The notes beneath the pieces were generated by a model. The model had not been told where the DNA came from. It ran no database searches and worked only from the letters and a program-made list of their open reading frames with translations. Both the position numbers and the translations under genes were made by a program. From positions 5,022,001 through 5,086,000 of the forward strand of contig NZ_CP011273.1 in the NCBI RefSeq assembly GCF_001610895.1: a DNA stretch of 64,000 bases, written 5' to 3'. Positions 38,242 through 46,440 of this stretch are shown here, in pieces; the stretch's first letter is position 1; every line of letters starts with the position of its first letter. The DNA comes from Planctomyces sp. SH-PL62. Lineage in GTDB: Bacteria; Planctomycetota; Planctomycetia; Isosphaerales; Isosphaeraceae.

Positions 38242-38583
38242 TCATTGCAGCGTGGTCGTCGGCGGGGCGCCGACGAAGATCTGCTTGACCTCTCCGTAAA
38301 GGCCCGCCGGCACGCCGATGAACGTCGCCGCGGCGGCTTTCACGATCCGGTTGTCGCCGGAATTCTCCCAGTATTCGCGCGGTTTGTAGAGCAGCGGGTG
38401 GCGGTCCACCGTGGAGATCGGCCGCGCCGCCGGGGCGTCGAGATACGCCTGGTCCTCGGCGTCGAGCCCGGAGAGGGTCGGCTCGTCGGCGATGGAACGC
38501 CGCCCCCCCGTGCCGTGGCAGCCGGACGTCGCCAGGATCGTCGCCGCCAGCATCAGGAACGCGAAAAGCTTCAGTCTGATCAT
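38242..38583 (-). CDS. Lipoprotein of unknown function
   Basis: A 113-residue protein with a lipoprotein signal (MIRLKLFAFLMLAATILATSG) and lipobox ATSGC near residues 18-22. The mature part, about 90 residues, carries DAEDQAYLDAPAARPISTVDR and the block LYKPREYWENSGDNRIVKAAAATFIGVP, which suggests a compact domain near a membrane. I do not know the family. It stands just before a CAP-domain lipoprotein gene on the same strand, about 100 bases away. Confidence 0.65.
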   Translation of the reverse strand: MIRLKLFAFLMLAATILATSGCHGTGGRRSIADEPTLSGLDAEDQAYLDAPAARPISTVDRHPLLYKPREYWENSGDNRIVKAAAATFIGVPAGLYGEVKQIFVGAPPTTTLQ

Positions 38584-38686: not shown

Positions 38687-39241
38687 TCATCGGGTTGCGG
38701 GGAGTCCGAATGTGACGCACCAGTACGGCGTACCGTCTTTAGCGGTCGCGTAGCCCAGACCCACCTGGCGGTAATCGCCGAGGATGTTCTTGCGGTGGGG
38801 GGGGCTGGTCAGCCATCCCCGCATGACCAACTCGGGGGAGTAATGGCCATACGCGACGTTCTCTCCACAGCGCCGGTAGCGATACCCGAGATTTTGCACC
38901 CGATCCGCGACCGACGAGCCGTCGGCCCCCTTGTGCGTCATCTGGCCGCGTCCGGCCATCTCCTCGGCGTGGAGCTGTGCGGCCTCTTGAAGCTCCGGGC
39001 TGATCTCCACACGGGTCCGCTTCCGCTCGGCGCGAGCCCGGTTGTGCAGCCTGAGCAACGATTCACGGACCCCGTCCAGCTCCATATCTCCCGGTGCGTC
39101 GGGAGTCGGCCAGGGGCGGGCCTCGCCGGGGACGGTCAACGGCCGGGGCCACACGTCGACGCCGGCGCAGCCCTGGAACAGGACGAGCGTCGCGACGGCC
39201 CCCGCGAGTCGGCGAAGCGTACGCATCCTGACGAAGATCAT
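38687..39241 (-). CDS. CAP/SCP (YkwD-like) domain lipoprotein
   Basis: A 184-residue exported protein. The N-terminus (LRRLAGAVATLVLFQGCAG) holds a lipobox LFQGC. The CAP domain follows: LLRLHNRARAE, LQEAAQLHAEEMAGRGQMTHKG, RCGENVAYGH and a final WLTSPPHRKNILGDYRQVGLG. Bacterial CAP proteins of this type are common and poorly understood; secreted protease, lipid-binding or wall roles have been proposed. ATG 39241 is preferred to the internal ATG 39226 because GGAG lies at a workable distance. Confidence 0.82.
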   Translation of the reverse strand: MIFVRMRTLRRLAGAVATLVLFQGCAGVDVWPRPLTVPGEARPWPTPDAPGDMELDGVRESLLRLHNRARAERKRTRVEISPELQEAAQLHAEEMAGRGQMTHKGADGSSVADRVQNLGYRYRRCGENVAYGHYSPELVMRGWLTSPPHRKNILGDYRQVGLGYATAKDGTPYWCVTFGLPATR

Positions 39242-39364: not shown

Positions 39365-40210
39365 ATGACGCACGCCCCGTCGCTCATCTCGTTCGACCTG
39401 GAGACCACCGGACTCGACCCCGCCGTGGACCGCATCGTGGAGGTCGGCGCCCTGGTGCTCGACGGGGACGGGAACATCGTGGACCGGTTCGAGCGGTTGA
39501 TCAATCCCGGCCGCCCCATCGCGGCGACCGCCAGCGCGGTCAGCGGCATTCATGACTCCGACGTCGCCGAATGCCCGTTCGCGGCCGAAGTCCTGCCCGA
39601 CTTCCTCCGCCTCCTCGACCGGGCCGCCGACGCCCCGCTGATCGCCCACAACGCCGCGTTCGACGCCGGTTTCCTCGGCATGGAGCTGGCTCGCGCGGGT
39701 CTGCCGATTCCTGCCCGCCCGGTGGTGGACACACTCCCCCTGGCCCGCGCCAGGCTCCCGGAATTGCGGAGCCATCGGCTGGACCTGCTGGTCGCTCACT
39801 TCGGGATCGCGCCCCGGGCTCGGCATCGGGCCTTCGAAGACGCGGCGGCCGTGGCGGCGCTGTGGTTTCGGCTCGACGGTCCCAACCTGGATTCGCGGGC
39901 GATGGTCTCGTATCCTATCCGCGACGGATCGAAAGCGATCCGTCCGCCCCTCGGCTGGGAGCGGCTCGACGAGGCCCTGTTCCGATGCCTTCCCGTCCGG
40001 ATCGCCTATGTCGGCGGTTCGCGAGGCGACGCCCCCCGACTGGTCACGCCGAGGCGATTCGCCCATCGAGGCGGCATCGCCTACCTCGTGGCGACTTGCC
40101 ATCTCGACTCGATCGAGAAGTCGTTCCGGCTCGACCGGATTCGCACATATGAAGTCCTGGACGAGTCCCGTCCCCCGGAGGTCGCGACGCCGTGCCCCGA
40201 CTGCTCGTAA
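39365..40210 (+). CDS. DnaQ-like 3'-5' exonuclease fused to a WYL domain
   Basis: A 281-residue protein with two domains. Residues 1-175 are a DEDDh exonuclease: SFDLETTGLD (residues 9-18) with the first D and E, IAHNAAFDAGFLG with the middle D, and HRAFEDAAAVAALW with the last H and D; this resembles the DNA polymerase III epsilon subunit. Residues about 210-275 form a WYL-type module, VRIAYVGGSRG, TPRRFAHRGGIAYLVATCH and KSFRLDRIRTYEVLDES. WYL domains bind nucleic acid or small ligands and are usually found in regulators, so this joining is uncommon. The stop overlaps the next start by 19 bases. Confidence 0.82.
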   Translation: MTHAPSLISFDLETTGLDPAVDRIVEVGALVLDGDGNIVDRFERLINPGRPIAATASAVSGIHDSDVAECPFAAEVLPDFLRLLDRAADAPLIAHNAAFDAGFLGMELARAGLPIPARPVVDTLPLARARLPELRSHRLDLLVAHFGIAPRARHRAFEDAAAVAALWFRLDGPNLDSRAMVSYPIRDGSKAIRPPLGWERLDEALFRCLPVRIAYVGGSRGDAPRLVTPRRFAHRGGIAYLVATCHLDSIEKSFRLDRIRTYEVLDESRPPEVATPCPDCS

Positions 40211-44898: not shown

Positions 44899-46440
44899 TC
44901 AGCCGATCGGGAAGGAGCGGGTGATGGCCTTGGCGATCTCCATGTAGATCGGGATGCCGATCGTGACGTTGTAAGAAAACGTCAGGCCGAGCGACGCGGC
45001 GAGCGGCAAGGTCGGGCTGGCCTCGGGGATCGCCAGTCGCTGCACGGCCGGGACGGCGATGTACGACGCGGACCCGCAGAGCACCGAGAACAGCACGTAG
45101 GTGCCAAGCTCGAAGTGCGTGCCGGTCACCCACGCATAAGTGTGGGCGATCATGATCCCCAGAGTGGCGAAGAGGTTGGGGGCGAGGAGGCCGAAGGCCA
45201 CGAAGTTCCACCCGGCGGTCTTCAGGTCCTTCAACTTGCGGCTCGCCGTCATACCCATTTCCAGCAGGAAGAGGCAGAGCACGCCCTGGAACAGGGTGAC
45301 GAAGAAGCTATCGTCGGCGCGGGTCACTTCCGGCCCCTGAAGCCCGCTGATCAGTCCAATGATGATCCCGCCGAATAGGAGATATAAACCGGTGTTCAGG
45401 AAGACTTCGTGCAGCAGCTTGCCGTTGATGAAGCCCTTCTTGCGGCCGTTGCCCACGTCCTCGCTCTCGTGCTCCATCCGCTCCAGCGACATCTCCGCCT
45501 CGGTCTGGACGGCCGAGGCATGCTGGTCGCGACCATGCTCGTCGATCAAGATCGGCGGCGCTTCGGCGGAGGGATCGTAGCCCGGTTCGTAGGGCATGTT
45601 GCCCAACGCGTCCATCCCCTGGGCGCGGTAGTGGGAGACGAGATACAGGGCGACAAGGCAGCCGGGGATCTCCATAATCGCCAGCATGACCGGCATGTAG
45701 GCGTCGAAAGCGATGTGCGCCGAGCCCAGCACGCCCAGGGCCGTCACGAACGTGCCGGCCGAGTCAGACCCGTAATATCCCGCGACCGTCGCCTGATCCA
45801 CCCGCCGCATCCGGGTGACCGACCGGAGGATGCCGAACGCGATCAGTCCTATGAGCGTGTTGGCCAGGAAGCCGACCCCCATGAACCCGACGATCGACTT
45901 GATCGAGTCGGGGTTCAGATGCGCCAGCTCCTCGCCACCATGCCAGCCGATGGCGATCAGCAGATAGATCGTCAACGCTTGATACATCACGTAGGGGAAC
46001 TCGAATTGCACGCGGAGGATCGGGACGAGGAATCCCAGGTAGAAAAACAACAGCAGCGGCTTGAACAGATTGTGCCGGAAGTTGTACCAGAATTCGTGGA
46101 GCATCGAAGAGAAGGACGAGGACGAGGGCGTGGTCGGTTGGCTGTCGACCGTGATCCTGGAGGCCGTGATTGAGTCGGAGACCGTGATGACCATCCCGAC
46201 CTTGAGGGCTTGGAGCGGCTGAACCGGACCGTCCGCCCGATTGATGGTCGTCCCCCTGTCGTAGTGGACCACCACGTCTCGCTGGCCGGACTCGTCGCGG
46301 ATGGTGAGGGTCGAGTTGGCAGCGTCGATCGACTTGATCGGCCCGCGGAGATCGTCAGCCCGCGACGGGCCGGCGATCGCAAGGACCGCAAGGGAAAGGA
46401 CGATGATCGTCGCGAGGCGTGGGGGGCGGAATCGGCTCAT
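44899..46440 (-). CDS. SbtA-type sodium-dependent bicarbonate transporter with secreted N-terminal domain
   Basis: A 513-residue inner-membrane protein. Residues 1-28 are a signal peptide ending SRA; residues 29-105 form a small beta-rich module (GPIKSIDAANSTLTIRDESGQ and VHYDRGTTI, resembling DUF5666). From residue 115 the SbtA core begins, with GWHGGEELAHLNPDS, YYGSDSAGTFVTALG, MTASRKLKDLKTAG and the characteristic ASYIAVPAVQRLAIPEASPT and TFSYNVTIGIPIYMEIA. SbtA imports bicarbonate with sodium and is known from cyanobacteria; the N-terminal module is not part of that family. No sbtB-like regulator is nearby. Start has AAGGAG upstream. Confidence 0.85.
   Translation of the reverse strand: MSRFRPPRLATIIVLSLAVLAIAGPSRADDLRGPIKSIDAANSTLTIRDESGQRDVVVHYDRGTTINRADGPVQPLQALKVGMVITVSDSITASRITVDSQPTTPSSSSFSSMLHEFWYNFRHNLFKPLLLFFYLGFLVPILRVQFEFPYVMYQALTIYLLIAIGWHGGEELAHLNPDSIKSIVGFMGVGFLANTLIGLIAFGILRSVTRMRRVDQATVAGYYGSDSAGTFVTALGVLGSAHIAFDAYMPVMLAIMEIPGCLVALYLVSHYRAQGMDALGNMPYEPGYDPSAEAPPILIDEHGRDQHASAVQTEAEMSLERMEHESEDVGNGRKKGFINGKLLHEVFLNTGLYLLFGGIIIGLISGLQGPEVTRADDSFFVTLFQGVLCLFLLEMGMTASRKLKDLKTAGWNFVAFGLLAPNLFATLGIMIAHTYAWVTGTHFELGTYVLFSVLCGSASYIAVPAVQRLAIPEASPTLPLAASLGLTFSYNVTIGIPIYMEIAKAITRSFPIG

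Follow-up and report, generated by a model that had tools for sequence, protein, structure and literature searches.

Most work on WYL domains concerns their role as sensors in transcription factors; what does one do at the end of an exonuclease? The question is raised by a gene at 39365..40210 (+ strand) of the stretch of DNA analysed here (64,000 nucleotides from Planctomyces sp. SH-PL62; the window), an open reading frame that runs from ATG to TAA and encodes 281 amino acids. A preliminary description had read it as a DEDDh exonuclease followed by a WYL domain in one frame, and had suggested that the WYL part could gate the activity of the nuclease.

The domain pair was recovered by using Pfam. 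The DEDDh exonuclease domain (DnaQ-like; RNase_T, PF00929) covers residues 9-166 (39389..39862, + strand; 1.6e-31, 110.5 bits against a cut-off of 24) and the WYL domain (PF13280) residues 199-264 (39959..40156, + strand; 4.7e-11, 43 bits against a cut-off of 21.8 for the whole protein, and 45.6 bits against the same cut-off when the C-terminal 101 amino acids were searched alone); nothing else in the protein scored above a Pfam cut-off. The HMM comparison that had been proposed as a check thus placed the C-terminal part in the WYL family. The domain had been put at residues 210-275; it is present, but its Pfam limits lie about ten residues earlier at both ends. The two domains are joined by a weakly conserved linker (residues 167-198; 39863..39958, + strand) and followed by a C-terminal tail (residues 265-281; 40157..40207, + strand), of which residues 269-281 were modelled with a pLDDT below 50. 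The WYL match is followed by a mere 17 residues, too few for a WCX domain like that of PafBC or DriD. Pfam gave no HTH match in the protein, the N-terminus of which is the nuclease. In NCBIfam, TIGR00573 (dnaq) was matched above its own cut-off (88.9 vs. 71.5), and the PRK07883 and PolC models were ranked at the top, yet far below theirs; none of the best 25 of 31 NCBIfam matches reached the WYL part, all of them stopping by residue 177.

The architecture is already known. A fusion of WYL with a "3'->5' exoRNase" was listed by Makarova et al. in 2014 (PMC4012209; this and the other papers are cited here from excerpts of their text). By its wording it has the same domain pair, given there without sequence, domain order or function, and it is likely to be the DnaQ-WYL family described here. 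The fusion is not stated in the corresponding excerpts of PMC6789036, PMC11804915, PMC12340889, PMC12458937, PMC9964779, PMC4319927, PMC6547453 and PMC4275035. The words 'exonuclease', 'RNase T' and 'nuclease' are absent from the main text of the WYL architecture survey (PMC6789036), a figure of which omits architectures with fewer than 100 sequences; more than 90 % of the WYL proteins surveyed there fall into classes with an HTH before the WYL domain. No functional study of a WYL-exonuclease fusion came to light among the literature results examined.

The host and 58 relatives (59 genomes) were searched for the gene. A full-length fusion, chromosomal in each case, was found in 21 of the 37 genomes of the host's family and in no other of the 59; the full-length gene is missing from the remaining 16 family genomes, some of which are incomplete. 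A survey of domain architectures had been suggested beforehand; each of the 21 full-length copies could be aligned through the nuclease as well as the WYL part, a pairing beyond chance. Another 45 ORFs matching both profiles were identified in 110 loci (L032-L141). One of them was the window's copy and another was incomplete; without these two, 43 remained, which together with the 21 family copies gave a set of 64 fusions. The 43 comprise 27 from the host's class or phylum, four records placed in Planctomycetota and 12 from elsewhere, the last assigned to Desulfobacteraceae (1), Cyanobacteria UBA7694 (1), Bdellovibrionota (4), Myxococcota/Deltaproteobacteria (2), Omnitrophota (1), Armatimonadota (1) and Synergistota (2); these 12 records are mostly metagenome-assembled, so that single placements may be wrong. 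The fusion is present elsewhere in the host's phylum and in seven further phyla (eight phyla overall). In a Pfam scan of nine distant fusions, WYL scored above its cut-off in seven; L101 fell just under it (21.2 against 21.8), and in L070 the domain was not found at E 0.01.

Averaged over all pairs of the 64 fusions, identity was 42 % for the nuclease, 31 % for the WYL part and 16 % for the linker; for the 21 family fusions the values were 55, 52 and 39 %. Within the genus, dN was computed for four pairs, each of them including the window's copy; it was 0.109-0.145 for WYL vs. 0.154-0.318 for the nuclease, at a dS of 0.57-1.44. By these figures the WYL part is more constrained than the nuclease at close range and less so at long range. 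It is no decaying appendage at either range, and both domains are under purifying selection. A tree of the DnaQ domain, built from the 64 fused rows and 45 of the 64 available single-domain rows and with a bootstrap that had not fully settled, needed five changes of the fused/single label vs. 35 for shuffled labels; the DnaQ-WYL fusion may have had a single origin. The 21 family copies form one clade in this tree (100/99), and the fusions of the host's family and class branch with the records placed in Planctomycetota. The host carries a second DnaQ-type exonuclease (L002, 1132-1899, - strand; G000:C1 near 313,500), 255 amino acids long and with a different C-terminal extension.

The catalytic residues of the nuclease, D11 (39395), E13 (39401), D100 (39662), H154 (39824) and D159 (39839), are all five kept in 64 of 64 fusions; judged by these residues, the DEDDh active site is intact, and 3'-5' exonuclease activity is predicted. 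Among solved structures the nuclease matched DNA-type enzymes, namely PolC (2.2e-40), Pol III epsilon (1.6e-28) and DinG (9.5e-21), and also Cas2-DEDDh (3.3e-20); the matches to RNase T (5.8e-10) and oligoribonuclease (2.1e-05) were weaker. PolC-type and epsilon-type DnaQ exonucleases share the nuclease fold and active site of the fusion, but they lack a WYL domain and are parts of DNA polymerase III enzymes.

For the WYL part, a profile was built from 15 relatives and searched against solved structures. PafBC was nearest (2.3e-13); PafC and further WYL proteins, including DriD chains, were also matched, as were an AAA-family ATPase (8bnv, 8.8e-04), which is probably Pif1, and BrxR (1.2e-03). 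PafBC and DriD bind ssDNA through the WYL domain. They belong to the same WYL family, and their ssDNA-site positions are largely kept in the fusion; unlike it, they carry HTH and WCX domains and act as transcription factors. In mycobacterial PafB, ssDNA binding was lost in the mutants R181A, Y196A, R211A/R214A and R181A/R204A/R208A. The PafB spacing 181-196-204-208-211-214 corresponds to 225-240-248-252-255-258 in the fusion (R, Y, D, K, R and R), a mapping made by spacing and WYL-profile alignments; five of the six positions fit, and the equivalent of PafB R204 is the acidic D248. The double exchange R201A/R204A in PafC left ssDNA binding by PafBC intact, so that ligand-site residues alone prove nothing.

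The WYL ligand groove has been described as four conserved basic residues and a position that is often cysteine (PMC4012209). The ligand-site positions predicted for the fusion are Y215 (40007), R225 (40037), Y240 (40082), C245 (40097), K252 (40118), R255 (40127) and R258 (40136); the four basic residues (R225, K252, R255 and R258) and a cysteine are all present, and C245 would be the groove cysteine of that description. Across the 64 fusions, Y215 and P229 are each kept in 62, C245 in 63, K/R252 in 63, R255 in 57 and R/K258 in 63; R225 (46/64) and Y240 (41/64) are less constant. Judged from its residues, the ligand site is largely intact and of the ssDNA type, and contact of the WYL domain with nucleic acid in the fusion is supported indirectly. 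As a single letter, C245 (codon at 40097-40099) is more constant across phyla than the ligand-site arginines.

The reading that we prefer, held tentatively and with somewhat less than even confidence, is that of a chromosomal DEDDh 3'-5' exonuclease, likely acting on ssDNA, the WYL barrel of which would hold the substrate strand. The DEDDh domain would trim ssDNA from its 3' end, and the WYL barrel would bind the same strand behind that end; a strand held in this way could give the enzyme a higher affinity, a higher processivity or a choice of substrate. We infer here that the ligand is ssDNA, that this ssDNA is the substrate strand and that processivity or affinity is affected. The nearness of the nuclease to DNA-type exonucleases and of the WYL part to PafBC was counted for ssDNA; the acidic D248, the limited constancy of R225 and Y240 and the second structural model described below, in which the arrangement of exonuclease I is not repeated, were counted against the reading. 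A precedent is offered by the Pif1-WYL helicases (Thermotoga elfii, Deferribacter), which like the fusion act on nucleic acid and have their WYL domain at the C-terminus; this domain of bacterial Pif1 has been described as an accessory ssDNA-binding module, and an effect on affinity, processivity or substrate choice is ascribed to it. The arginine spacing of the ligand site (R464, R491, R495, R498 and R501 in DdPif1) matches the fusion in its last four positions, although Pif1-WYL is a helicase and not a nuclease, and R491 stands where the fusion has D248.

In E. coli exonuclease I (SbcB) a DEDDh exonuclease at the N-terminus precedes an SH3-like domain, the same order as in the fusion, and this SH3-like domain is thought to raise affinity, processivity or substrate choice. 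The second part of exonuclease I is, however, PF08411, another family than WYL, and a third helical region is added; in the Methylocaldum enzyme the nuclease (1-197) is followed by the SH3-like domain (198-355) and then by the helical region. An AlphaFold2 model of the window protein (21 family sequences; pLDDT 86.7, pTM 0.77) has five strands predicted at residues 211-264, and its best structure matches were PolC (Foldseek) and epsilon exonucleases (VIA). Residues 4-274 of this model were aligned with residues 8-329 of exonuclease I (4js4_B) over 243 residues (Z 19.4, rmsd 4.4), spanning the nuclease and extending into the SH3-like domain; Foldseek's longer exonuclease I alignments of the same model had an rmsd of 5.4-7.3. 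With a second model, that of the Synergistota homologue L130 (57 sequences; pLDDT 93.5, pTM 0.80), only the nuclease was aligned with 4js4_B (175 residues, 6-192), and the longer exonuclease I alignments by Foldseek had an rmsd of 6.9-9.5; the linker of L130 has extra helices at 180-197, and one structure matched by this model is that of the exonuclease Cap18 (Z 16.9). Hits to the nuclease domain took up the fold-search lists, so that the WYL part was barely probed; no WYL chain is among the matches listed, an outcome that does not speak against the fold. The likeness to exonuclease I in domain order stands; a likeness in arrangement is predicted in one of the two models only.

No PF08411 was found in the fusion protein by Pfam, even with E values as high as 10 admitted; the protein is not a member of the exonuclease I family, though it may work alike. 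PF08411 was also found in none of the 59 genomes of the host and its relatives; E. coli was the only one of 14 control genomes in which it was found, so that its absence from 59 of 59 says little. RecJ was found in 56 and exonuclease VII in 54 of the 59 genomes, both of them in the host, and an ssDNA exonuclease is thus not obviously missing. A wider proposal, possible but doubtful, is that DnaQ-WYL is the counterpart of exonuclease I, with WYL in place of the SH3-like clamp: a small processive 3'-5' ssDNA exonuclease of lineages without SbcB, with WYL serving nucleic-acid enzymes in general as a module that holds strands, and not as a sensor only. DnaQ-WYL, in which much of the ligand site varies little more than the active site does, is a clean two-part system for asking whether WYL is basically a strand-holding domain and whether it can set the processivity of an enzyme, and it would provide a testable function for an exonuclease gene present in eight phyla.

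The gating suggested in the preliminary description would make the WYL domain an allosteric sensor of a separate signal (an ssDNA fragment or a nucleotide) that switches the nuclease on or off. Such switching has parallels in PafBC and DriD, in which ssDNA acts at the WYL domains, and ligand sensing was suggested for WYL-enzyme fusions by Makarova et al. (PMC4012209). The switch of PafBC and DriD, however, uses HTH and WCX domains (in DriD also a three-helix bundle), for which the fusion protein has no match or room, and the nearest enzyme precedent, Pif1-WYL, has its WYL domain as an accessory module. The linker, as the least conserved part (16 % over the 64 fusions), and the differing exonuclease I fit of the two models would both argue, weakly, against a fixed allosteric interface. 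Gating is unlikely on this evidence and, by analogy with these systems, would not be the most economical reading; strand holding would be simpler.

RNA is a possible substrate of DnaQ-fold enzymes, and the gene product might be a 3'-5' exoribonuclease, its WYL domain binding ssRNA, that serves RNA decay or end trimming. This alternative, no more probable than gating, would agree with the name exoRNase given to the fused domain by Makarova et al., with the Sm/Hfq-like fold of the WYL barrel (PMC4012209) and with the protein WYL1, which prefers ssRNA over ssDNA and dsDNA. It fits less well with a nuclease whose structure matches favour PolC, epsilon and DinG over RNase T and oligoribonuclease, and with a WYL part that is closest to the ssDNA-binding PafBC, which was not activated by ssRNA.

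A role as an anti-phage or CRISPR-linked effector is improbable. The PADLOC models for a CRISPR-associated DEDDh protein (8.1e-37) and for WYL (8e-10) each matched part of the protein, and the candidate family PDC-S48 matched residues 10-168 (4.6e-38); Cas2-DEDDh and Cap18, the latter belonging to CBASS, are among the structures matched by the nuclease and by the L130 model, respectively. WYL fusions were, moreover, linked to defence by Makarova et al. (PMC4012209). PADLOC nevertheless gave no whole-protein match, each of its seven matches covering one part only, and Pfam found no defence gene among six neighbouring ORFs; the neighbours look housekeeping, and their order is partly shared with genome G028. 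None of 65 matching phage records covered 80 % of the protein, the nuclease part being present there without the fusion, and one of 412 matching plasmid records did so (Methylobacterium, query 8-235, 30.5 % identity). Of at least 199 confirmed viral contigs 80 were kept, and in none of these 80 did the match reach the WYL part. The single clade of the 21 family copies also speaks against defence. A defence role was set low, as gene context and the PADLOC, phage, plasmid and viral-contig searches gave it no support.

Within the window, the fusion gene overlaps by 19 bases with a 4-HFC-P synthase homologue (PF04476; 40192..40896, + strand) that has a GTG start. Four NCBIfam family models matched this homologue far below their cut-offs, so that the window's form is divergent. 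Two genes on the other side are divergent from the fusion gene: a CAP-domain protein (38687-39241, - strand; Pfam) and a small ORF (38242-38583, - strand) that Pfam does not match and that looks lipoprotein-like by eye. The two are found again close to the fusion in further family genomes, the CAP gene upstream and on the opposite strand in 16 of 21 family loci. A UPF0047 ORF (Pfam) and an SbtA-type bicarbonate transporter homologue (44899-46440, - strand; PF05982, 2.4e-101) are also nearby, as are ORFs that, by the look of their sequences, we take to encode GAPDH, PGK and an aldehyde dehydrogenase. Around the fusion, the window and G028 agree in gene order, with some genes differing. In five of six genomes of the genus, alignment shows an overlap of the synthase gene with the fusion gene, and in 19 of 21 family loci the synthase gene lies at most 1.5 kb downstream on the same strand; in two loci a membrane-protein-like gene of about 200 codons stands between them (L017, 2334-2936, + strand; L007, 2376-2969, + strand), identified in L017 as DUF6580 by Pfam.

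Neighbours were clustered over 37 loci; the gene caller used was crude and found the fusion gene itself in no more than 27 of these. The printed clusters (at least three loci) outside the family consisted of an ABC ATPase-like gene and a few genes mainly of Bdellovibrionota, presumably, by the look of their sequences, of the pyruvate-dehydrogenase type and radical-SAM aminomutase-like. No conserved functional partner of the fusion emerged from these clusters across phyla. In fusion loci outside the family, with flanks of at most about 9 kb and often at most 1.5 kb, neither the synthase nor the CAP gene was matched at E 1e-6. A function tied to the overlapping synthase gene (methanofuran or C1 metabolism) would account for the overlap and the recurrent downstream position, but it is the least credible alternative and very improbable, given the loci without a synthase match and those with an intervening gene, and shared transcription explains the proximity; the synthase is a neighbour conserved within the family. 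In G011 a remnant of the WYL part is all that is left of the fusion gene (L028, 1501-1644), a short frame with a stop that is flanked by a PGK-like and a DUF6580-like ORF; the gene appears, from this remnant, to have been lost there.
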